Origin: Lepiota brunneoincarnata
Lineage: Eukaryota > Basidiomycota > Agaricomycetes > Agaricales > Agaricaceae
Direction of reading: 5' to 3'
NCBI GenBank assembly: GCA_023014365.1
Contig: JAEBUN010000013.1
Coordinates: 186,001-250,000 of the forward strand
Length of the DNA: 64,000 bases
This document shows positions 8,268 through 54,190 of this stretch, piece after piece. How positions within the stretch are numbered: position 1 is the first letter of the stretch; every line of letters begins with the position of its first letter. The notes under the pieces were generated by a model that was not told the origin of the DNA, made no database searches, and saw only the letters and a list, made by a program, of their open reading frames with translations. Both the position numbers and the translations under genes were made by a program.

Positions 8268-11200
8268 TTAGGTGGTTGGGTCATTGGTGGGGTTGTCTAG
8301 TTTGTGGGCCTTTTTATATTCTTCAATGATTTCCTTGGCATTCTCCAGGTTTGCTTCTGGCTCCCAGGAGTCCTTGGTGGGAAGGTATCCTTTCCATCTG
8401 ACTAGGAATTGGTATTTGTTCCGGAATCTTCTGTGGTGCAGTATTGACTCAACCTTGTATTCTTCTTCTCCATTGACAAGGTCGGGGGGCGGGGCTGTGT
8501 TGTATTCCCCATGTGTGTCGTTCCCTTCTGCAGGCATTAGGAGGCTTGCATGAAACTTGTTGTGGATCTTCCATTTGATGGGTAATTTTAGCTCATAGGT
8601 AACTGGTCTGAGTTTTCTTGTTATGGTGAAGGGACCTTCTTGGCGTTGGGCCAGTTTCTTCAAGGTGTACTGAATTGGGAGGTTGCAGTTGTCTAGCCAA
8701 ACCTTTTGTCCAACTTTTAGATTGATATCTGGCTGGTTATATCTTGCAGCCATTTTTAGTCTGGCTTGTTCATGCGCAGCTTGAGCTTCTTGGTGTATCT
8801 TGGCAAGGTATTTAAACTTTTCTCCTATTGCTGGAATATTTGTTAGCTCCTCGGAGGTCGGAAATCCTTTGGGGGTTGATCCATAGAGGAGTTCAAATGG
8901 GGTATGTTGGCGTTTGGCATGTGTCTTTGAGTTGTGAACATATTCTAGGAGTGGAAGTGCCTTTACCCATTTGTTTGGGTTTGATGAGCAATAGATGCCA
9001 AGGTATAGTTCTATTTCTTGATTGAATCGCTCTGTTTGTCTGTCTGTCTGTGGGTGGTAGGCGGTAGAGAGTGCTTGTTCAATTCCAAGTTGTTTGTAGA
9101 ATTCTTTCATGGATTTGGCAGTGAATCTGGGGTCACAATCGCTGAGAATCTTCTCAGGGAGGCCAAATCTAGAGAATAGCTGTTTGATAAGAATTTCGGC
9201 AATCTTGTCCGCATTGGCAGTTTTCACAGTAGGTTCTAGAATTATCCCCTTTGTAAGCTGGTTGACCATGACCAGTATAGAATCATGGGGTCTGTCCGGG
9301 GGTAGGTCTGTGATGAGATCCATCGAGATGTTTGAGAATGGATGGGTAGAGCAGGGTCCAGGGATAGGTTGAAGCAGTGGCTTCAGGGGGTGGCAATTGA
9401 TTTTGTATTGTTGGCAAGCACCACATCCTCGGACATAGTTCTTGACAAATGATTGCATCCCAGGCCAATAGGTGTACTCCTGGAGTTTTCTAGTAGTTTC
9501 TGCAATTCCAGGGTGTCCTGCGGTTGGTGAGTCATGTACTCTTTGCAGTAGGTGGCATCTGAGATGTAGATCTTGAGGTATAAATAGCTTTCCATGGACA
9601 CATGGGTGTCCTGAGTCATCTTCTTGAGCAATGTTGGTTTGTTTCTTCTTCTTCTATAGCTCCTTTATTTCCTGTTTGGTAGTTTCATCAATAATACAGA
9701 TGTGCTGTGGTTGTTCTGGGGTGAAGAATTTATTGGGTAGGGCAATAATCTGTTTGTTGTCTTTTATCTTGGGTTCATGGTCGGGTTGTCTTGAGAGGGC
9801 ATCCGCTGGTCCATTTTTCTTTCCAGGGATGTGCCGGATTTCGATGTCAAATTGTTGCATGTAGGCAATCCATTGAGCTTGTCTTCTACTGAGATCCTCG
9901 GGTTTTCTCCAGCGGCAGAGGTTGTCATGATCTGACCATACAATGGTCTTGTGAGATGATCCTTCTATGTGATGGCGCCATTCCTTGAGTGCTCGGATTA
10001 TGGCATTCAAATTTGCATTTCTCAGTCTTGAGGTATAGATCATTGTCTTTGAGTATCTTGAGTACCTCTCTTGTAAGACGTTGGAGTTCTTGTTTTGTTT
10101 TTGCATGGATGAGGATGTTGTCCATGTAAACAATTACTCCTCCATTATCAATGAGTTTTTGGAATAGCAAGTCCATCATGGTTTGGAAGGTTGCTGGGGA
10201 GTTGCACATTCCGAAAAACATGACCATAGGTTTGAATAGTCCTTGGGGTGTTCTGAATGCTCCTTTCCATTCATCTCCTTTGCATATACGGATGTTATTA
10301 TATCCTGCTTGTATGTTGACTTTGGTAAAGTATCTTGATCCTCGGAGTTTGTTGAGAATATGTGAGATGAGGGGAAGATTGTATGCGTTCTTGACAGTGT
10401 GTTCGTTAAGATACCTGTAATCTTGACAGGGGCGTAGTTTTCCATCTTTCTTCCCTACAAAGAAGAAGGGTGAGGCCATTGGTGACTTGGATGGTCGGAT
10501 GTATCCTTTTTGAAGATTTTCCTCAAGAAACGTGTCGAGTTCCTTTTTTTGTTAAGGGAGAGTTGGTAGGATTTCATAGCAATTGGTTTGAATGATTCTT
10601 TGAGTTCAATCTTGTGATCCCATGGTTGTTGTGGGGGGAATTGTTTGGCTTGTTTCTTGCTGAATACCAGAAGATATTCATGGAATTCTGTCGGTACAAC
10701 TTTTCTTGGGTCGTTGTTCTTCTTTTCTCCATGTTGTACAGCAAGGAATTGCAATGCTGAGGCTTTGAAGTTGATTTCTTCAAAGCTAGTAGGCTCAAGG
10801 GTGGAGATGTGATTGAGTTGGTCATTATATATCCAATCAGGTTCCATAGATTGGATGAGCTCTCAGTAGATAGTGTTGTCCCAACGTTCGTTTCTCCAGT
10901 GTAATTGTTTGGTGTCCCAGTTGATATCTGGGTTATGTTCTGCAAGCCAGGGGAATCCAAGGATGAGTCTTGGGCTTCTAAGGGAGACTACTTTTGGTTT
11001 GATCTCCATATCCTTTCTGTTAACCGTTAGGTTGAGAATTGTATAATGGGTGGCTGTTCCATTTTCATTAATGGATCTGTCAGCATTTTGTACTTCAATG
11101 GGTTGATCAAGGGGTATTGTTTTGAATGAATGTTGTCTGACCATTCCAGGGTCAATGAAATTTCCTGCTGCTCCTGAGTTGAGTAGGGCAAGTAGTTCCA

Positions 11201-16742: not shown

Positions 16743-19700
16743 GGAGACTAGCCACCACGTCTAGCCCTCCACAAAGACCTCCTTCCCTTTCCTATTCACA
16801 AAATGATATTAATGTTGTAAAGTTACAGGAATCGTCAGCACGCGTAATACATCTACCCTGTCGAATCCGAAAACACAAGTTCACTAAGGAAGGACCCGAA
16901 AGCGTGGAACTACTCGCTCTACTCGACTCAGGAGCAGCAGGAAACTTCATTGACCCCGGAATGGTCAAACAACATTCATTCAAAACAACACCCCTCGATC
17001 GACCCATCGAAGTACGAAATGCCGATGGATCTGTTAACGAAAATGGAACAGCCACCCACTACACGACCCTCAACCTAACGGTTAACGGGAAGAATATGGA
17101 GATCAAACCAAAAGTAGTCTCCCTCGGAAGCCCAAGACTCATCCTTGGATTCCCTTGGCTTGCAGAACACAACCCAGACATCGACTGGGATGCCAAACAA
17201 CTACGCTGGAGAAACGAACGTTGGGACAACACTATATTCCGAGAACTCATCCAATCCATGGAACCCAATTGGATCTACAACGACCAACTCAACCACATCT
17301 CCACACTAGAGCCCACAAGCTTCGAAGAAATCAACTTCAAAGCCTCCGCATCACAATTCCTCGCCGTACAACACGGAGAAAAGAAAAACGACGACCCAAG
17401 AAAAGTTGTACCCACGGAATTCCACGAATACCTCCCAGTATTTAGCAAGAAACAAGCCGAACGATTCCCCCCACAACAACCATGGGATCACAAAATTGAA
17501 CTCAAGGAATCATTCAAACCAATTGCCATGAAGTCCTACCGACTCTCCCTCAATGAAGAAAAGGAACTCGACACGTTCCTAGAAGAAAACCTTCAAAAGG
17601 GATACATTCGACCATCTGAATCGCCAATGGCATCACCTTTCTTTTTCGTAGGAAAGAAAGATGGAAAACTACGCCCCTGTCAAGACTACAGGTACCTCAA
17701 CGAGCATACCGTCAAAAATGCGTACAACCTCCCCCTCATCTCTCATATTCTCGACAAACTCCGAGGATCAAAGTACTTTACCAAACTCGACGTACGAGCA
17801 GGATACAACAACATCCGCATACGCAAAGGAGATGAATGGAAAGGAGCCTTCAGGACACCCCGAGGATTATTCGAACCCACGGTTATGTTCTTTGGAATGT
17901 GTAACTCCCCAGCAACATTCCAAACCATGATGGACTCATTATTCCGAAAACTCATCGACAATGGAGGAGTAATCGTTTACATGGACGACATCCTCATTCA
18001 CGCAAAAACAAAACAAGAACTTCGACGCCTCACAAGAGAAGTACTCAAGATACTCAAGGACAACGATCTATACCTCAAAACCGAGAAATGCGAATTCGAA
18101 CGACAACGACTCGAATATCTAGGAGTTATTATCACTCCCGACTCAGTTTCGATGGACCCAGCAAAGCTCAAAGGCATCGCTGAATGGCCAACACCAACTA
18201 CCCCGCGCGACGTACGAAAATTCATAGGATTTTGCAACTTCTATCGAAAATTCATACACCAATACGCCACATGGGCAAAACCTCTCAATGCCCTAATGTC
18301 CAAAACCAAGAAATTCGAATGGACAGAAGAATGCCAGAACGCCTTCGATACTCTCAAGAGAAAATTCCAAAACGAACCGGTACTAATGGTCCCCGACCGA
18401 GACAAACCCTTCGAAATCGAATGCGACGCATCACTATTTGCATCAGGAGCAGTCCTACTTCAACGCGACAACAATGGAGTTAAACACCCAGTCGCATACT
18501 TCTCGAAAGGATTCTCACCAGCCGAACGCAACTACCATTGCTCCGAACAGGAACTCTTTGCCATTATCCGAGCACTCAAAGAATGGCGTCACCACATAGA
18601 AGGATCATCACACAAGACCATCGTATGGTCAGATCACGACAACCTTCGCCGCTGGAGAAAACCTGAAGACCTCAGCAGAAGACAAGCCCGATGGATTTCC
18701 TACATGCAACGATTCGACATCGAAATCCGACATATCCCTGGAAAGAAAAATGGACCAGCAGATGCCCTTTCCAGACGACCCGATCATGAACCCAAGACAA
18801 GAGACAACAAACAGGTCGTTGCACTCCCTGACAAATTCTTCACCTCAAAACAGCCACAACATATCCATATTATCGACGAAAATACTAAACAGGAAATAAA
18901 AGAGCTGTGGAAGAAAAAGAAACAGACCGACATCGCCCAAGAAGATGACTCAGGACACCCACGTGTTCAAGGAAAACTATTTATACCACAAGATTTACAC
19001 CTCAGATGCCGCTTACTGCAAAGAGTACACGACTCACCCACCGCAGGACACCCTGGAATCGCAGAAACAACTAGAAAACTCCAGGAATACGCCTACTGGC
19101 CCGGGATGCGATCATTTGTCAAAAACTACGTCAAAGGATGTGGTGCTTGCCAACAATACAAGATCAATCGCCACCCCGTAAAACCACCGCTCCAACCCAT
19201 CCCTGGACCCCGTTCTACCCGTCCATTCTCGAACATCTCGATGGATCTTATCACAGACCTACCCCCGGACGGACCCCATGATTCTATACTGGTCGTGGTC
19301 GACCAGCTTACGAAGGGGATAATTCTAGAACCTACTGCGAAAACCGCCAACGCGGACAAGATCGCCGAAATTCTTATCAAACGGCTATTCTCTAGATTTG
19401 GCCTTCCCGAAAAAGTTCTCAGTGATCGCGACCCCAGATTCGCTGCCAAATCCATGAAAGAATTCTACAAACAACTTGGAATCGAACAAGCACTCTCTAC
19501 CGCCTACCACCCCCAGACAGACGGACAAACAGAGCGATTCAATCAAGAAATAGAACTCTACCTCGGCATCTATTGCTCATCGAACCCGAACAAATGGGTA
19601 AAGGCACTCCCACTCCTGGAATATGTCCACAACTCGAAAACACATGCTGAACACCAACATACCCCATTTGAACTCCTCTATGGATCAAGCCCCAAAGGAT

Positions 19701-20398
19701 TTCCAACCTCCGAGGAGCCAACGAACATTCCAGCAATAGGAGAGAAGTTTAAATACCTCGCTAAGATACGCCAAGAAGCCCAAGCTGCGCATGAACAAGC
19801 CAGACTAAAAATGGCTGCAAGATATAACCGGCCAGATATCAATCTAAAAGTTGGACAGAAGGTTTGGCTCGACAACCGCAACCTCCCAATTCAGTACGCC
19901 TCAAAGAAACTGGCCCAACGCCGAGAAGGTCCCTTCACCATAACAAGAAAACTCGGACCTGTTACCTATGAACTAAAATTACCCACCAAATGGAAGATCC
20001 ACAACAAGTTTCATGCGAGCCTCCTAATGCCTGCAGAAGAGAACGACACACATGGGGAATACAACACAGCCCCACCACCCGACCTTGTAAATGGAGAAGA
20101 AGAATACGAGGTCGAGTCAATACTGCGCCACAGAAAATTCCGGAACAAGTATCAATTCCTAGTCAGATGGAAAGGATACCTTCCCACTGAGGATTCCTGG
20201 GAGCCAGAAGCAAACCTGGAGAACGCCAAGGAAGTCATTGAAGAATATAAAAGGGCCCACAAATTAGACAACCCCACCAATGACCCAACCACCCAACACT
20301 CGAGCAACCACTCCAGACCTCCCAGAGCCAGACAACGATGGATGCCTTCTCATCCAGGAAAGAATCATATCCCTGGCGAACCGCGTCACGGGAAATAG
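16730..20398 (+). CDS. pol: Pol polyprotein of element 2 (PR-RT-RH-IN-chromodomain)
   Basis: Continuous frame encoding all pol activities. The aspartic protease motif LLDSGAAG starts near 16919. The reverse transcriptase active site YMDD is at 17978-17989, followed by RNase H (ECDASLFASGAV, about 18418). The integrase has an HHCC zinc finger (19024-19160) and a DDE core in MDLITDLP, LSDRDPRF and TDGQTERFNQE. A C-terminal chromodomain (EVESILRHRKFRNKYQFLVR with a WKGY motif, about 20110-20250) should direct insertion to modified chromatin. No ATG precedes the protease. The frame opens at 16730, overlaps the gag stop by 13 bp and lies in the -1 frame, so a -1 ribosomal frameshift or reinitiation is likely. 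It overlaps ORF3 at its 3' end. Confidence 0.95.
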   Translation, partial: GFCLRRLATTSSPPQRPPSLSYSQNDINVVKLQESSARVIHLPCRIRKHKFTKEGPESVELLALLDSGAAGNFIDPGMVKQHSFKTTPLDRPIEVRNADGSVNENGTATHYTTLNLTVNGKNMEIKPKVVSLGSPRLILGFPWLAEHNPDIDWDAKQLRWRNERWDNTIFRELIQSMEPNWIYNDQLNHISTLEPTSFEEINFKASASQFLAVQHGEKKNDDPRKVVPTEFHEYLPVFSKKQAERFPPQQPWDHKIELKESFKPIAMKSYRLSLNEEKELDTFLEENLQKGYIRPSESPMASPFFFVGKKDGKLRPCQDYRYLNEHTVKNAYNLPLISHILDKLRGSKYFTKLDVRAGYNNIRIRKGDEWKGAFRTPRGLFEPTVMFFGMCNSPATFQTMMDSLFRKLIDNGGVIVYMDDILIHAKTKQELRRLTREVLKILKDNDLYLKTEKCEFERQRLEYLGVIITPDSVSMDPAKLKGIAEWPTPTTPRDVRKFIGFCNFYRKFIHQYATWAKPLNALMSKTKKFEWTEECQNAFDTLKRKFQNEPVLMVPDRDKPFEIECDASLFASGAVLLQRDNNGVKHPVAYFSKGFSPAERNYHCSEQELFAIIRALKEWRHHIEGSSHKTIVWSDHDNLRRWRKPEDLSRRQARWISYMQRFDIEIRHIPGKKNGPADALSRRPDHEPKTRDNKQVVALPDKFFTSKQPQHIHIIDENTKQEIKELWKKKKQTDIAQEDDSGHPRVQGKLFIPQDLHLRCRLLQRVHDSPTAGHPGIAETTRKLQEYAYWPGMRSFVKNYVKGCGACQQYKINRHPVKPPLQPIPGPRSTRPFSNISMDLITDLPPDGPHDSILVVVDQLTKGIILEPTAKTANADKIAEILIKRLFSRFGLPEKVLSDRDPRFAAKSMKEFYKQLGIEQALSTAYHPQTDGQTERFNQEIELYLGIYCSSNPNKWVKALPLLEYVHNSKTHAEHQHTPFELLYGSSPKGFPTSEEPTNIPAIGEKFKYLAKIRQEAQAAHEQARLKMAARYNRPDINLKVGQKVWLDNRNLPIQYASKKLAQRREGPFTITRKLGPVTYELKLPTKWKIHNKFHASLLMPAEENDTHGEYNTAPPPDLVNGEEEYEVESILRHRKFRNKYQFLVRWKGYLPTEDSWEPEANLENAKEVIEEYKRAHKLDNPTNDPTTQHSSNHSRPPRARQRWMPSHPGKNHIPGEPRHGK

Positions 20399-46779: not shown

Positions 46780-47235
46780 AGCGGAAAGCTGTTACTACAA
46801 CTCATTACACCGGTCCCACCGATGTTACGATAGCAAGGCCATTCTTCCCAATCGCATTATCCGAACTAAGCTCATACTCAATTTTGTAACTATCGATTGT
46901 CGCAATCACTTATTCGGGTTCACGACATGTGCTGATCTAGTGGTTGGGTGCAGTGTATGGCTGCTGCTTTGATTGTTGAGAGGGACAATGCATAGCCTCG
47001 TAGGGGGCATGTCTGGTATCTTCCCTGTATTCTATCTTCTAGACTCATGGTTTTGGTCATAGGTCGTCTGATCTCTAAGCTCCGACTCACGCTATCAACT
47101 AATTAATTAAAGGATAATACACTATATGGGTTTGATATTGACCACTGCAATCTTCCCGTGGACCGAAGATCACCAACACACATCAGGCTACATTACCCTC
47201 CATGTTATTTATACAACTTGTTCAGTATGACTAGA
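46780..47235 (+). pseudogene. Family A relic, left flank of the ribozyme insertion
   Basis: Collinear with 50.89-51.27 kb: ATAGCAAGGCCAT, then GCTGCTGCTTTGATTGTTGA, GGTATCTT, and CTCACGCTATCA. Weak family A translation only. Confidence 0.5.
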
Positions 47236-47661
47236 TGGGGGACTTATGCGGGTTTCGCCCTTGCGAAGGGGCTCATCAGAGGGCTTAACCGCTGCCCTAA
47301 CCCGCCTTGGCTCATGTAGCGACAGGATTAGACTACCTAACTTAGGGTGGCTGTAGGGGTGTATGAATCAATATGTTATTTGATCTGCCGGACCGGCTAG
47401 CGCGCTGGGGTGCCTCCGGGACCCCGTACAGGTAGGTAGGATAGGGGGACTGGGCCTGGGGCATCCCTCCCCCTCGGACCCCTCACGACACAATGCCTGA
47501 TGAGAGGCCGGCCCACTGCGTAGTCTTTTACACTACGCCTTTTTCGTCTGTCTGTCTGTGCGTAATCCTCCAGCTAGATCCTTACTTAAGCGTCAGGCCG
47601 GCCGTCTCCGAAGATAGGGCAGCAAGCTGCGAAAGTGCGAGGTCTTGGAATCGAACCAATC
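47236..47661 (-). mobile_element. 426-bp insertion carrying a hammerhead ribozyme
   Basis: Defined by comparison with the paralogous segment at 51.27 kb: flanking sequence reads TATGACTAGA on the left and CTCTTCTTGACAG on the right, while the empty site reads TATGAATAGACTCTTCTCGAC without interruption. The insert is GC-rich compared with its surroundings and has no ORF. In minus orientation it starts near a perfect Pol III B-box-like GGTTCGATTCC (47648-47658). It contains a perfect 7-bp hairpin (stem GCGTAGT, 47517-47537) and two GGCCGGCC palindromes near 47505 and 47597, and it ends with the ribozyme. No clear target-site duplication. It could be a SINE, a retrozyme-like element or a captured viroid-like RNA. 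Confidence 0.7.
47248..47305 (-). ncRNA. Hammerhead ribozyme (type III topology)
   Basis: On the minus strand, 5' to 3': stem III strand GCGGGU (47305-47300), cleavage-site base U (47299), stem I AGGGC (47298-47294), a 9-nt loop, stem I GCCCU (47284-47280), core CUGAUGA (47279-47273), stem II GCCC, an 8-nt loop, stem II GGGC, core GAAA (47256-47253), stem III CCCGC (47252-47248). Stems I (5 bp), II (4 bp) and III (6 bp, including the A15.1-U16.1 pair) are all perfectly complementary. All invariant core bases are present. The cleavage triplet is GUU, which obeys the NUH rule, so cleavage is predicted between 47299 and 47298. No other match to this core with pairing stems was found in the window. 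Confidence 0.88.
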
Positions 47662-48400
47662 CTCTTCTTGACAGTCCCCCTGGTGTTTGTATGGCTCGGT
47701 TCTATCCATTTCTGGGAAGCCATGGCTCAGACTTTCCTTGTCTGCGACCTGTACATGTCTTTAACTACGTCTGCATATGACCCCTAGCGTGATCCGTCCG
47801 GAGATTGCAACAAACTTTGTAAGTGCCGCGGAGGAGCCATCATCGCTGCAGTCTGTGAGGTGTCCAGCTTTCCATGAGAAGTTTGGAGAATATGATGTAT
47901 AAACGGGTCGTGGGAGGAGGGTTATCGTGGAACATGACAATTTCTGATTGAGACATCGCTTATCTGGTGTGCGGTTGACATTGGGGACTAGATCCGTGCA
48001 TCGTCCGGGTTTAACTTGACATTCCTCATAGAAGACAGTCTGCCATGGACCCAGAGCTGACGTTTCAACCATTGAAGTCGCAGATTAGTAGGAATTGCTG
48101 GTAATAGAACAGCTTCCCCAGCCCCATAAACACGCTCCTTTATGCTATCCGTATTGCCAGTAATGAAGTCTTTCCGAGTGAGGAACTGGATTAGTAATGT
48201 ACCCTGTCAAGCTCCGGTAATCCACAGAGTGGGCTACTACCCTTACGCGGGTCATAGATATTCAAAACAGAAGCTACTCCCTCCTTGCTATCAATTACAG
48301 ATTCTTGAAGCCTGGGAATTGAGATAACTTAGGGTGCGAAGCACACATTGTTCACATGGTCTCTTCGGAACTGAAATTTGAGCACCCCTAAAACAAGAAT
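47662..48400 (+). repeat. Segmental duplication, copy 1 (partner 51.28-52.05 kb)
   Basis: Collinear blocks are GTTTGTATGGCTCGGT, ACTTTCCTTGTCTGCGA, TCCGGAGATTGCAAC, CATCGCTGCAGTCTGTGA, and GAAGCCTGGGAATTGAGATAA. No intact gene; frames are short. Confidence 0.7.
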
Positions 48401-49880
48401 CGGCGATATTCCAACACATGTGTAGGCTCCGCAAAATACCCTATTCTTACTCGGTCACAGATCCAAGTCAAGTTCCAAGGGTCACAACATTCTCCGGATA
48501 AATACATTCTACTTCTGGACGCTGACCCCAGACATGGTCAGTAACTTGGCCACACACCACTCGTACTATCCGGTCATCTGGTAAGTGAAAACTACTCCCT
48601 AGTACCTTTGATCTTGGAAATGACCGCGAGGGACTAGGCATAGGCATGCTTTGATGACCATTCAACTCGTTGATATCACGGCCCAATCTGTCGATCGGCA
48701 GGCACGACTTAGGGGTAGGGGGATGCTAATGGCATGTTCGGAAGCTACCCAGGCTCTAGCCTTAATTCTTCAAGTCGCCTCGGCCGGCAACAGTCAAAAA
48801 CCTTACCATTGCCCAGCTCAGACGTAAGGCACTTGTCATTCGTATAGTTGGGTCAAAAATTGAATGGTTGCGAAATAGGGATGGGCGGTCTTCACAACCC
48901 TCACACAGGCTTGAATGCCACAACACCGGCACCCTCAGTTCCCTCTCGCTTATATTATCTATCGTATGGACAATAATAGCGGTCTCAACCACTCTAGTCC
49001 GGTGGGTGTGCCGGAATCCAGAACGCTGGACCCGCCGCGTTGTTTTGGAAAAAGGAATATATTATGAGGTGAGTGGCATCATACAGAGTCGGAATTTCGT
49101 CATGAGTCTAAGATGAACTTCGTTGATAACAGGTTTTCATGGTGATCACGCTAATTGTGCACATTTTCCAATGTGCCAATTTCCTCATCGCCTCCGTCGA
49201 CTGTGCGCCCTATTCCCTGCGCATTCCTCTCTCTCCCATCCGTTGACTGGCGATTTTCTAGGGGGAGTCCGGGGCTCCTATGTTCGCATAGTAACATTTT
49301 ACATTATCATTTGGTTTGTACCCAAACACGTTTCAATTACTACTCTTGCTCACATATCCATACCTCTAGGTGCAGCAGGATAGCATTGATTAGTCCATTT
49401 GCTATGAAGCCGAGCCACCGAGTGGACCGGTGGTATACCACCCACTTCCGGGTGATGATCGCTTTATACCCGGGACTTATGGCTGGTCTGATCACACAAG
49501 CTGTGATCACATGTCGGTCAGGGGAGGGGGACTGGAATGTTGGGGAGAGTCCCCAGTGCCGACTTGGGCCACAAGTGGCGATTACTCATTACATCGGTGC
49601 GCTTGTCCCCTCTACCACTCCTCTCTCTCTCGCTCTCTCACTAATCATGATCTCATGTATGGAACAGCCGACCTCGTAGCCGACTCATATATGTTGTACA
49701 AAGTTGGCTCACTCCTCCATCTCCTCCAGGGCAACGAAAAATGGCGGATCATTATCTCATTCATGAGCTACGTCCTGACCATTTTAGCTTCGGTGGTCCA
49801 CGCGACCTTCATCCTGAAGACGGGTGGTCCACATGAAGTTATTGCCGGTATTGTTGAGGTAAGTCATTAATCACAGCCTT
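48400..49880 (+). pseudogene. Family B (7TM-like) gene relic (49-kb copy)
   Basis: 48400-48800 carries the family B landmark block with a helix ending QALALILQV. 48930-49070 encodes LSLILSIVWTIIAVSTTLVR (first helix) and RWTRRVVLEKGIYYE, followed by a GTGAGT site at 49069. After an acceptor near 49131 comes VFMVITLIVHIFQCANFLI. 49455-49600 encodes VMIALYPGLMAGLITQAVI and RLGPQVAITHYIG. 49660-49858 encodes LVADSYMLYKVGSLLHLL, ISFMSYVLTILASVVHATF and EVIAGIVE, then GTAAGT. It has the same order as the 37-kb copy. Stops near 49240 and frame changes make it a relic. Confidence 0.55.
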
Positions 49881-50890
49881 TGCATACCCGCACATTTTTC
49901 AACACTACCCGATTCCAGATGGTGATCAATTTATGGCTAGTGTGAGATATCACCAGAATCATGCTTCGGCTGCATCAGATATAGTGAATTTTCTGCGGCA
50001 TGCACTTCCCAACCTCTTCTGATAACCACCTTAGACCCTTGTGAGAAACACGCCTACATGCACAGCTCGATGCATGCTCCCTCCTCAGCATTGTTGCTCC
50101 TGGTGGCACAATATCCTCCTCTCCTGAACGTAGTTTGTCTCTTTTGTATCCGTAGATACACATTCCCTTTCTCTCACGACTTATTCTACATTTTGTAGCA
50201 AATTGTTCCAACTCTGTAGTATAAATCTGGGTGCTCAAGCACCTCGCTAACAGTAGTCTACACCCCTTTCCTTACTCTCACTCCTCGGACCCATTGTCAT
50301 TACTCGCTATGCTTTAATCACACGCGCTTTCTCTCACTCTCTCTTTCCTTTGACAGACTTAAGCCCCAGTGACCATACTGTCAGGTCACATTCATTTTGT
50401 TGCGAACGGGCCTTCTCATTCTATACCCTGCGTCTCCTTCTCACCTATCAGCCTCCGCGGAGTAGATCTCTCACTGGCAACTTCAGATGTACCGGGCGGC
50501 AATGCACACAGAAGACCCTCCGCGTGAAACGGTGTGAAGGAACCGGCAGCCCCGTTGGCTCTATGGGGGCCAATTTTGGCTGCTTGTGACGCAAGAAAGG
50601 TAGTTGCAAAGACCAGACGGACTTGGATAATCCATCAGAAAAAAAGCTATCCCTGAAACCTTCTCTTGATGTGGGTCTTCTCATCGACGGCGATTGAGGA
50701 GCTCAGCGTGGTGACTTTGCAGGTGGGATCAGGACTTCGTAGGTCGCTATTTTTGGACCTATATCGAGTTCACAAGATCTCGCCTCCGTAGTCGCTTGCA
50801 AACAGGACGAGTTAATTTCCGTGGAGTGTCTGCTTTTACCATCGGCTAGTTGGACACCACTGTACTAGGAGGCATGGCACGCGGTACCAG
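49881..50890. other. Unassigned sequence with one conserved block
   Basis: 49961-49980 is the ATGCTTCGGCTGCATCAGAT block, preceded by TGTGAGATATCACCAGAATC, which is shared with 53.51 kb. The remainder (50.0-50.7 kb) contains no recognisable gene. 50770-50890 has a weak family A trace (GTAGTCGCTTGCAAACAGGA). Confidence 0.4.
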
Positions 50891-52450
50891 TCCTACTGAT
50901 TCTATGATAGCAAGGCCATCCCTCCCACTCACATTATATAAATCAAGCATGTGCTCAATCCTGTAACTACCGATGGTCGCAATCATCCGTTCGGGCTCAC
51001 AATAGCTGCTGCTTTGATTGTTGAAAGGAACCTCCCAGCGGGTATGTCTGGTATCTTTTGTATATTCTATCTTCTAGCCTCATGATTTTGATGATAGGTT
51101 GTCCGATCTCTAAGCTCTGCCTCACGCTATCATGTAATTGATTAAACGATAATACACTATCTGGGTTTGATATTGACCACTGCAATCCTCCTGCCGCAGA
51201 TGATTATCAGTATGCATAGGGTGCGGTGCCCTCCATGTTATTTATACGACTTGCTGCTCAGTATGAATAGACTCTTCTCGACTGGCTCCCTGGCGTTTGT
51301 ATGGCTCGGTCCTACCCACGTCTGAGAAGCTATGGCACGGACTTTCCTTGTCTGCGATCTGTACGCATAAATATATCGATACCAACTGTGTCAGATCTTC
51401 CTAGTGTGATTTGTCCGGAGATTGCAACAGCTCCATAGGTACTGAGAAGGAGCGATCATCACTACATTCTGTGAAGATTCCAGCTTTCAAGAGATGTTTG
51501 GAGAATCTTGACATGAGATGGAGACTATGGTGTTAACAGGTCGTATTTGGAGGGTTACCCTGAAATGGGGCAATTCTTGCACTTGGGGACTGGATCCATG
51601 CGCCACCCGGGTTTTGCTTGAGCATTTCTTACGGAAGGCCGTCTGTCATGGATCCCAGATCTGGGGTTTTAACATAGGGGTCCCAGAATTGCTGGTCATA
51701 GAATGGCCCCCGGTCCCATCAGCACGTTCCTTTACGCTTCCCACATTTCCAGTAGTGAAATACTTCCGGCCGGGGAGCTGGCTTAGCCAGTGATGTATCC
51801 CATCAAACTCAAGTAGTCCACAGGGCAAGCTGCTATACTTCTATTATCTTACGCAAACCAGGGATGTTCCAAACGAAACCCGCTCCCTCCTTGCTACCAG
51901 TTACAGAATCTTGAAGCCTGGGAATTGAGATAACTCCGGGTGTGAAGCACACATTGTTCATATGTTCGCTTCGAAACTGGAATTTGAGTACACCTAAAAC
52001 AAGAATTGGCAATATTCCGACATATGTGTAGTCCTGATAAACGCGTTCTACTTCTGAAGGTTGACCCCAGACATGCCCAGTGACTTGGCCACACACCACT
52101 TGTACTATCTGGTCATCCGGTGAGTGACAATTCCCCAGTACTTTTGATCTTAGGATGACGACGAGGGACTAGGCACACGCATAGTTTGATGACCCTTCAA
52201 CTCATTGATATCGTGGCCCAATCGTCTGATCGGCGGGCACGACTGAGGGGTAGGGAGATGCTAATGGCATGCCCGGAGGCTGCCCAGGATTTAGCCCGAA
52301 TTCTTCAGGTCTCATTCGCTAGCCACCATCGAGTCGCTGTCATTGGCCTGAATCCGATGTAAGGCACTAGCCATTCATGTAGTCGGGTCAAACATTGAAC
52401 AGTTGCGAGAATAGGGATGGGCAGTCTTCGCAACGCTCGCATGGGCTGCA
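50890..52450 (+). repeat. Segmental duplication, copy 2 (partner 46.8-48.85 kb)
   Basis: Collinear with 46.8-48.85 kb but without the 426-bp insertion; the empty site is at about 51271-51273. It includes a family B fragment at 52000-52340 with the usual landmarks (GGTGAGTGACAATTCCCCAG, ATTCTTCAGGT). Confidence 0.75.
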
Positions 52451-52589
52451 TATGGAATGTTACTTTACTTGCCTCGAGCTAAGTCACAGACCGTATAATG
52501 TTTCATCAAGGCCCACCCATCACCAATGCAATGTGGCGACATTTTGACTATCCCGGGTATGATAAAGGTTTCCTGCTCCTCATGAGCTT

Positions 52590-53520
52590 GCTTATATTAT
52601 TCAAAGTAGACACTGGTGGAAGAGGGGGACGAGTGTCTGTAGGTGCCCATAGAGAATGGACAGGGGCAGGGATTCCGTCGTTCGAGGCTGAGATGCCCAA
52701 AGGTATGGCTAGTGGCGAGGCCACTCGCCCGGCTTTGAACTCGCCAACAAACTCGAATTCTTCTTCGATCCATCACCATCTTCCCCCATGAACTGACCAC
52801 CCCATTGAGTAATCCCCCACCCAACCCCACCACCCCAAACAACCTCCAAAACTCAAATTACTCAACTTCAACATGTCAAGTGGACAAGGCAGGCATGTCG
52901 ATCCTTTACCGCCATCGCCATCTCGGCAGCAGCGACGAAACAGGGATGGAGGCATGGAACACGAACAGCTGTCAAAAAGAATAACTTAGCAATGTGAGTC
53001 CATCATTACCCGGTTGTTATTACTCTCATCTCAGGCATGTGGAGATAAGGGCAGACAAGACCCTATGTCGAAAATCTCCCGTCACCGACTTAAGTGCTGT
53101 TGACGCATAACAAGCATTTCACCTTCCCACTCGATGTAAGTCCCCTGCTGCGATCCAAACAGATCAGAATAAACACTGTTGATACTCTGAGCCCAGGAAG
53201 TAGCATGTCTGCGTTTATCGGACACATCTTCTACGACTAATGGCCACAGGCTCATTTTGGCGTGGCAGGAAATGGTCAAAAATATGTTTATTCCCACCTC
53301 ACCTCAAGTACATACACAACAGTCACGCTTCCGATATAGCAATCCGGATAATTTGCATTGCCGAGACCTGGGCCAATGTGGGGAAAGGAGAAGAATATCG
53401 AGTACCATCCAACAAGATATCCACCACTGCTGTAACCTTCGCGGGTGTAGCCTCGTGAAAGGCCGGGCCAAGATTGGCAGTTTCGACACTACTCAGCAGC
53501 ACTGTCTACAGAGAGTGAAA
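52590..53520 (-). repeat. Inverted copy of repeat R plus family C relic
   Basis: Reverse complement of sequence at about 33.85-35.45 kb, in the matching order: 52740-53015 is repeat R (CAAGTGGACAAGGC, GCAATGTGAGTCCATCA), and 53030-53500 is family C (GGGCAGACAAGACCxTATGT, GGCAGGAAATGGTCAAAA, TATTCCCACCTC). This is the only large inverted member of the array. Confidence 0.7.
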
Positions 53521-54190
53521 TATCACTGGAATCATGCTTCGGCTGCATCAGATACAAAGAATTTCTGTTTTCTAATTTGGTATTACCACCTCCATGTACT
53601 TTTCCAAAGCCCCATTAATCATGATTGGCATGTCCCATAATATACATTGCGCTAGATATGTACATACTTACCCCATGGTGGCTTCCGCACAGCCACACCA
53701 GCTCGGTAACCAGAGTCCACACAGCCCGTCCTCTCATTTGCACCAGCTACACAGTCGCAGCTCTGAGGTTTACCTTTGCGATGCAAAGTTCTCACCCTTG
53801 CCTTGTCCACACCTTTCATCCTGCATGCTAACTTTGATCATCAGATGGCATTCACGTGCGTGCAGCTCTTATGAGTTCTCCAGCAGACTCTGAATACTCG
53901 CTTATGCGATGACAAAAGTCCTCATGTACCGGCTGCGAGCCAATCCCAACGATTTAATCCAAATGGTTTGCTGCCTACGTTGTCTTGCGCTGGCCGCAAG
54001 AAACGTGAGCCCCGAGACTGTGCGTTCAGACGATCCAGCGCGGGAAATCTCCTCAAGGGTCTAGTAACCAGCAGGGACTTTAGGGGGAAAATTGAACCGC
54101 GTTTACACGAGGAAATATGATTATGGGGATAGACTCTGGGCAACTCGTGCGGGACAAGTTTTGGGGTGAGGTGTCTCGCCACTGGCTATT
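53521..54190. other. Decayed flank sequences
   Basis: 53534-53553 is the ATGCTTCGGCTGCATCAGAT block. 53685-53840 resembles 4.07-4.20 kb and 55.62-55.80 kb. 53920-54190 shows nothing I recognise. Confidence 0.4.

Follow-up and report, generated by a model that had tools for sequence, protein, structure and literature searches.

A type III hammerhead motif at the 3' end of a dispersed, SINE-sized element with tRNA-like parts in Lepiota brunneoincarnata

In tRNA-derived SINEs, an A box is followed by a B box within the 5' head of the element. Retrozymes, which are likewise non-autonomous and non-coding, contain a pair of direct repeats, both with a hammerhead ribozyme, together with LTR features and 4-bp target duplications. 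They are known from plants (LTR type, with type III hammerheads) and from animals (non-LTR type, with type I hammerheads), as described in passages of PMC7761336. The metazoan non-LTR retrozymes are tandem, at ~150-300 bp, and sections of PMC7229834 and PMC7761336 liken them to SINEs and have a tRNA ligase as the enzyme thought to close their circles. Helenus TRIMs, short non-autonomous fungal elements with tRNA-derived sequence that are also found in Agaricus and Coprinopsis, have LTRs, PBS/PPT, and 5-bp duplications according to portions of PMC10886601, where the word "hammerhead" occurs once, in a reference title. As to hammerheads in fungal genomes, hammerhead-associated interspersed repeats are mentioned for Yarrowia (in part of PMC3088659) and five Hammerhead_3 hits for Pleurotus ostreatus (in part of PMC5040776).

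The element analyzed here lies in a 64,000-nucleotide stretch of Lepiota brunneoincarnata DNA, the whole of which is called the window (Table 1). It resembles retrozymes in being non-autonomous and non-coding, with a type III hammerhead and dispersed genomic copies, but it has a single hammerhead instead of at least two bounding a repeat unit, no LTRs were found in it, it shows no target duplications, and it carries tRNA-like promoter parts. Like the metazoan non-LTR retrozymes, in the passages that describe them, it is short and non-LTR; unlike them, it is type III, monomeric, and ~428 bp long. With tRNA-derived SINEs, as characterized in portions of PMC10886601, it shares its size, its dispersal, the lack of coding capacity, and tRNA-like A and B boxes (here putative promoter boxes), but its B box comes first instead of following an A box in a 5' head, and it has neither a simple-sequence tail nor an excess of target duplications. 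Since it fails the defining tests of retrozymes (tandem hammerheads) and of SINEs (box order, target duplications), we file it under neither. With Helenus, as those portions describe it, the element has in common that it is short, non-autonomous, and fungal and contains sequence derived from a tRNA; the LTRs, PBS/PPT, and 5-bp duplications of Helenus set the two apart. Yarrowia and Pleurotus offer other fungal genomic hammerheads, those of Pleurotus being type 3 and in an agaricomycete; the likeness is one of description, the passages concerned giving no element anatomy. Fungal genomic hammerheads are thus already known, and the original prediction, which knew of no described fungal genomic element of this type, is incomplete in view of those two passages. 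A tRNA-related, SINE-sized carrier was not found in searches of the open-licence literature, nor was any description of a hammerhead-bearing SINE in fungi.

Table 1. Features of the element copy in the window and of the corresponding empty site
Feature	Position in window	Strand	Basis
Whole element copy, 426 bp (family ~428), 5' end at 47661, 3' end ...CCCCCA at 47236	47236..47661	-	copy alignment, empty site, 5'-end match C7:233661
Type III hammerhead motif	47248..47305	-	sequence, RF00008 match, descriptor search
CUGAUGA core, stem II with loop, and GAAA	47253..47279	-	sequence, RF00008 match, genome pattern
Stem I with 9-base loop, also readable as tRNA D-arm (GGGC AGCGGTTAA GCCC)	47280..47298	-	sequence, shuffle test
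A-box-like sequence TAGGGCAGCGG, one deviation	47289..47299	-	sequence
Predicted cleavage site after GUU	47298..47299	-	sequence only
ACCTCGC, acceptor-like, 6/7 pairs with ribozyme GCGGGTT (47299-47305)	47637..47643	-	family consensus
tRNA T-arm hairpin at the 5' terminus, containing B box GGTTCGATTCC	47643..47661	-	copy alignment, shuffle test, 5'-end pattern
Empty insertion site in diverged paralogous segment of the window	51271..51272	.	duplicate alignment, flank comparison

The hammerhead motif is real and not a product of chance. Read on the minus strand from 47305 to 47248, the sequence is GCGGGU-U-AGGGC-AGCGGUUAA-GCCCU-CUGAUGA-GCCC-CUUCGCAA-GGGC-GAA-ACCCGC, with 6, 5, and 4 Watson-Crick pairs in helices III, I, and II, no mismatch, an A15.1-U16.1 pair, and a GUU cleavage triplet. 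The original prediction of a minus-strand hammerhead with intact core and perfect stems was borne out by the presence of all core bases and the three helices; its type III topology, A15.1-U16.1 pair, and NUH triplet could be read directly from the sequence, and its cut between 47299 and 47298 agrees, as a matter of sequence position, with the placement of the GUU. In the minimum-energy fold of the segment the three helices were all present, helix III being longer by one U-A pair, and the folding energy was ordinary (z = -1.09; 29 of 200 shuffles were equally stable).

A type III descriptor (CUGANGA, GAAA, U16.1, H17) applied to both strands of the window returned this single site. Dinucleotide shuffling of both strands, repeated 300 times, gave 1 hit when every stem had to have at least 4 pairs and 5 hits when at least 3 sufficed. 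Genome-wide, the pattern CTGATGAG-N8-24-CGAAAC had 212 matches against 2 for a reversed control pattern; the 212 include a second hammerhead-bearing element, described below. In an 801-base search, the Rfam model RF00008 (Hammerhead_3) matched exactly the span of the motif at 33.0 bits (E = 4.1e-5), below the curated gathering cut-off of 48.5 bits, a score that nothing in the 64-kb window reached. The covariance-model check suggested with the original prediction thus returned the exact span together with a score under the threshold, the latter being half of the refutation set out for it. Set against the RF00008 type III family, the motif has the invariant core, the NUH triplet, three helices, and an open helix III, and falls short of the gathering cut-off. 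Scores for five further copies were 35.7 (L084), 24.1 (L094), and 23.4 bits (L092), with no match at E 0.1 for L085 and L093. Searching the genome itself with RF00008 gave no match, a result that is uninformative since control genomes likewise gave none.

The motif is not a lone ribozyme: it forms the 3' end of a dispersed, non-coding element of ~428 bp, 13 bases from the terminus. The assembly comprises 55.6 Mb in 95 contigs. A 451-base query around the motif gave 174 candidates, 40 of which were scored, and all 40 matched. A 43-base pattern running from the core to the 3' end was found at 77 places in the genome with at most 3 mismatches, and a 35-base pattern of the 5' end at 75 places with the same tolerance (control, 0 in both cases). 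In alignments, the copies share the start TCTTGGTTCGATTCCAAGACCTCGC and the end GAAACCCGCATAAGTCCCCCCA, while their flanks differ on both sides, and they reach 98% identity to the reference copy L008 across its 428 bases. The original prediction had the hammerhead as part of a fungal genomic element, and the type III motif is indeed common to many copies; what it missed was the place of the motif as the 3' end of a tRNA-related dispersed repeat, along with the additional reading of stem I and its loop as a tRNA D-arm and A box.

Among the 77 copies, 66 different 3' flanks were counted, or 59 once near-identical ones are merged and copies without a readable C run are dropped; some copies have common flanks because of segmental duplication. 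In L005/L006, L019/L029, L046/L054, and L039/L040, one flank was common and the other was not, as if breakpoints of ectopic recombination or duplication lay inside the element. No tandem or dimeric copies were detected: end-to-start junctions numbered 0 genome-wide (exact with a gap of 0-30, or adjacent with at most 3 mismatches), and the 77 loci, taken with ~1-1.5 kb of flank, contained no head-to-tail second copy. A ribozyme 3' end lay within 1.2 kb of 37 of the 75 5' ends and was absent for 38. Inspection of 35 of these 38 revealed a diverged or partial ribozyme region in 11 (L080, L082, L084, L085, L092, L110, L111, L112, L114, L121, and L123) and no ribozyme region at the expected place in 24. 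Truncation at the 5' end is a mark of target-primed reverse transcription. As proof of that process it was dropped, because unpaired 5' ends were about as numerous as unpaired 3' ends; with 37 of 75 5' ends paired and 38 not, 5' truncation is not established.

The window contains a diverged direct duplication (46809-49991 and 50886-53564; blocks 73-90% identical, 3.5-4.1 kb apart). It also contains two reading frames of chromodomain Gypsy-type LTR retrotransposons, at 8268-9458 on the minus strand (integrase, chromo) and at 16904-20398 on the plus strand (integrase, chromo, reverse transcriptase, RNase H). For a retrotransposon protein encoded in the window, the named relative of highest identity was from Agaricus bisporus (69%), and the best E-value went to a frog record of 47% identity; we take the element to be that of an agaric, on this and on the relatives of the telomeric protein described below. 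One half of the duplication carries the element and the other is the empty site, at which the flanks of the window copy meet with a distance of 0, which means a blunt insertion with neither duplication nor loss. The empty-site paralogue is 76 and 80% identical to the flanks, and 2 and 1 flank bases lie beyond the alignments. With L002, the duplicate filled locus, the flanks meet there at a distance of 4, with 6 flank bases beyond the alignments.

Flanks were compared in 39 insertions, namely those of the 77 copies with a complete 5' end, a readable C run, and non-repeated flanks. Target-site duplications showed no excess over permuted flank pairs in this set: flank likeness was 4.17 against 4.00 (equalled or exceeded in 718 of 5000 permutations), and with wider flanks it was 4.35 against 4.40 (3199 of 5000). 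The lack of an excess is unusual for SINE retrotransposition. A flank word of 6-7 bases was shared in the single insertions L034, L022, L015, L020, and L013. The base after the C run was A in all 39 insertions and in 55 of 59 in a wider set, within a weak target motif, A-N-C-T-A-T-G, following the C run (C 31, T 28, A 22, T 35, and G 26 of 59). A resemblance of the 3' flank to the element start, as from template run-on past base 428, was unsupported: there were 143 matches against 102.9 expected, and 10 of 105 letter arrangements of TCTTGGT matched as well or better. Helitrons begin with 5' TC, end with 3' CTRR, and insert between A and T. The element has the 5' TC, but its 3' end is CCCCCCA and the bases flanking the 39 insertions are not fixed as A and T, and a Helitron was rejected.

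The two ends of the element carry parts of a tRNA in permuted order. At the 5' end, a T-arm with a canonical loop and the B box, which stands at base 5, takes up the initial 19 consensus bases; the window copy starts with GA where the family has TC, and two outer T-arm pairs are consequently lost. At the other end, stem I of the ribozyme and its loop satisfy the D-arm criterion and contain the A-box-like sequence. We take the two box sequences to be an A box and a B box on comparison with the consensus sequences. The acceptor-like strand ACCTCGC lies directly behind the T-arm, and GCGGGTT directly ahead of stem I. In the consensus, the sole T-arm is the 5' end and the sole D-arm is inside the ribozyme, so that the element opens with what is the 3' part of a tRNA and has the 5' part, with the A box, near its 3' end. 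Joining the ends, in a circle or in tandem, restores an A box followed by a B box, 69 bases apart as counted on the sequence.

Among 20000 shuffles of both ends, 2455 contained a D-arm, 20 a T-arm, and 1 both (with 4 acceptor pairs), and none of the 20000 reached the 6/7 acceptor pairs of the real sequence; taken by itself, the acceptor strand is paired equally well by 4139 of 100000 random 7-mers. The T-arm is the strong part of the tRNA evidence, and the D-arm criterion alone is weak. ARAGORN at default settings detected no tRNA spanning the junction of the two ends; with its threshold lowered, it gave a tRNA-like fold there, plus others that included one on the opposite strand.

These parts raise the alternative that the 3' tail is derived from, or mimics, a tRNA and is recognized by a reverse transcriptase or by Pol III factors, the resemblance to a hammerhead not being catalytic. 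Such a tail would account for the D-arm formed by stem I and its loop, for the T-arm at the 5' end with acceptor-like pairing across the ends, and for the RF00008 score below the cut-off. A tRNA, however, needs no CUGAUGA, second 4-bp hairpin, GAAA, or 6-bp closing helix in hammerhead register, a layout that arose once in the 300 window shuffles, and the ARAGORN fold appears only at the threshold that also yields the opposite-strand one. We regard this alternative as the strongest competitor, and as unlikely.

The condition of the ribozyme was examined in 83 copies, namely the 77 found with the core-holding pattern and 6 others, segmental duplicates included. Alignment was gap-free in 71 of them, and 32 of the 83 were ribozyme-competent by sequence, with an exact core, 15 pairs, and NUH. 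Within the core, G>A in GAAA, a CpG site, was the most frequent change (11 of 71 copies). Across 46 distinct sequences, 35 single changes break a pair and 17 leave G-U. Transitions at G-C pairs that keep a wobble (15 C>T) and those that break the pair (14 G>A) were balanced, so inserted copies decay neutrally, and only source copies of the element can be under selection. The same 46 sequences had 7 double Watson-Crick changes, all at two CpG-bearing stem III pairs; covariation was not counted as proof of structure, given this location and the balance of single transitions.

Among 18 older copies, chosen by the neighboring core and having a body <90% identical to the consensus (2 or more duplicate pairs included), the 5' half of the ribozyme, positions 358-383, which lies outside the search pattern, was more consensus-like than the body in 14, and the stretch 310-380 in just 11 (means 0.831 and 0.816). 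A duplicated insertion, L112/L114, has a stem III (ACTGGT/ACCAGT) in which both sides have changed, with a transversion among the changes, and still pair; this insertion lacks the usual element 3' end, and the change is possibly a truncation artefact. L060, L061, L073, and L085 have AAAA for GAAA in the core with a re-paired stem III (GCAGGT/ACCTGC), and they represent either a lineage lacking the catalytic G12 or a pattern of CpG decay.

Our preferred reading, to which we give a probability of about 0.55, is a SINE-sized, non-coding, non-autonomous, retrozyme-like mobile element of a fungus, the hammerhead at its 3' end processing its own RNA. It builds on features observed directly, namely copies with the same two ends, the hammerhead, the 5' T-arm with its B box, the D-arm- and A-box-like stem I, and one blunt insertion. 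To judge from its sequence, the element RNA probably self-cleaves at the GUU. A linear monomer cut there would lose its final 64 bases and with them the fixed 3' end, and the ribozyme therefore makes most sense on a circular or multimeric RNA. The element RNA would be transcribed, the hammerhead would trim or open its multimeric or circular form, and the processed RNA may then be ligated to a circle, the least certain step. A reverse transcriptase encoded elsewhere, we infer, would copy the RNA in one round from the CCCCCCA end, and the cDNA would integrate, leaving genomic monomers that are permuted relative to the transcription unit. The permuted tRNA order would follow from a circular RNA, and this order and the place of the ribozyme agree with the copying of a circle, but the absence of tandem copies counts against a circular or multimeric route. 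A circular intermediate is a tentative proposal, somewhat doubtful in our estimation. A bolder version would be a fungal retrozyme of new architecture, in which a single RNA arm serves both as hammerhead stem I and as the D-arm with A box of a Pol III promoter, the RNA is circular, and once-around cDNAs are permuted, hence a B box at the first bases and an A box near the last; we think it rather unlikely.

An active ribozyme might instead merely excise the element RNA from host read-through transcripts, with no circle. The failure to find a single tandem copy fits this, as does the 5'-end processing proposed, in passages of PMC7761336, for ribozymes that start other retrotransposons. Those ribozymes sit 5', however, whereas the cut considered here takes away the last 64 bases and the fixed 3' end, which makes mere excision improbable. 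Another possibility is that the copies are integrated DNA from an infectious, viroid-like fungal RNA, which would agree with a length of ~430 nt, a hammerhead, and no coding capacity; against it stand a descriptor motif on one window strand only, a circular fold of the consensus with no extra stability (z = -0.72; 100 shuffles), on which a viroid-like rod was rejected, the tRNA promoter parts, and the lack of any exact match to a 26-base piece among IMG/VR contigs, and we consider it very improbable. Chance resemblance to a hammerhead, in favor of which the ordinary folding energy of the segment can be cited, is the least credible of all in view of the shuffle and genome-wide counts given above, the latter including the second hammerhead element.

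That second kind of hammerhead, CTGATGAGTCTTTATAAGACGAAAC, which is located in telomere-associated elements, was found among the core-pattern matches listed. In these listed matches, it lies at most ~46 kb from a contig end and points inwards, with the exception of C5:159211. It runs into one or a few CCCTAA units in L086, L087, L088, L090, and L106; L089 and L091 have no clean CCCTAA units, and the L095 sequence ends early. A 5-kb stretch at L106 has two such hammerheads, separated by 4733 bases, and a reading frame of 1200 aa, which matched reverse transcriptase without reaching the curated cut-off (E = 0.024) and has close relatives in Agaricus (61% identity) and Leucoagaricus (57%). The motif appears to be of type I, with a long stem III ending in GUU; this label is our own reading, since Rfam gives only weak type III matches (RF00008, 23-25 bits, E 0.02-0.09). 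Telomeric Penelope-like elements with hammerheads are described in a passage of PMC7761336, and the second family fits them.

The ~428-bp element itself would work like a retrozyme, if it works. Ribozyme-bearing retroelements of the retrozyme sort would then extend to fungi, in a monomeric, tRNA-related, type III form, and the element would be a natural case in which one stretch of RNA is at once an arm of a Pol III promoter and a helix of a ribozyme. It would also be a possible genomic source for fungal viroid-like RNAs. These results suggest a possible fungal counterpart to the ribozyme-carrying mobile elements of plants and animals.
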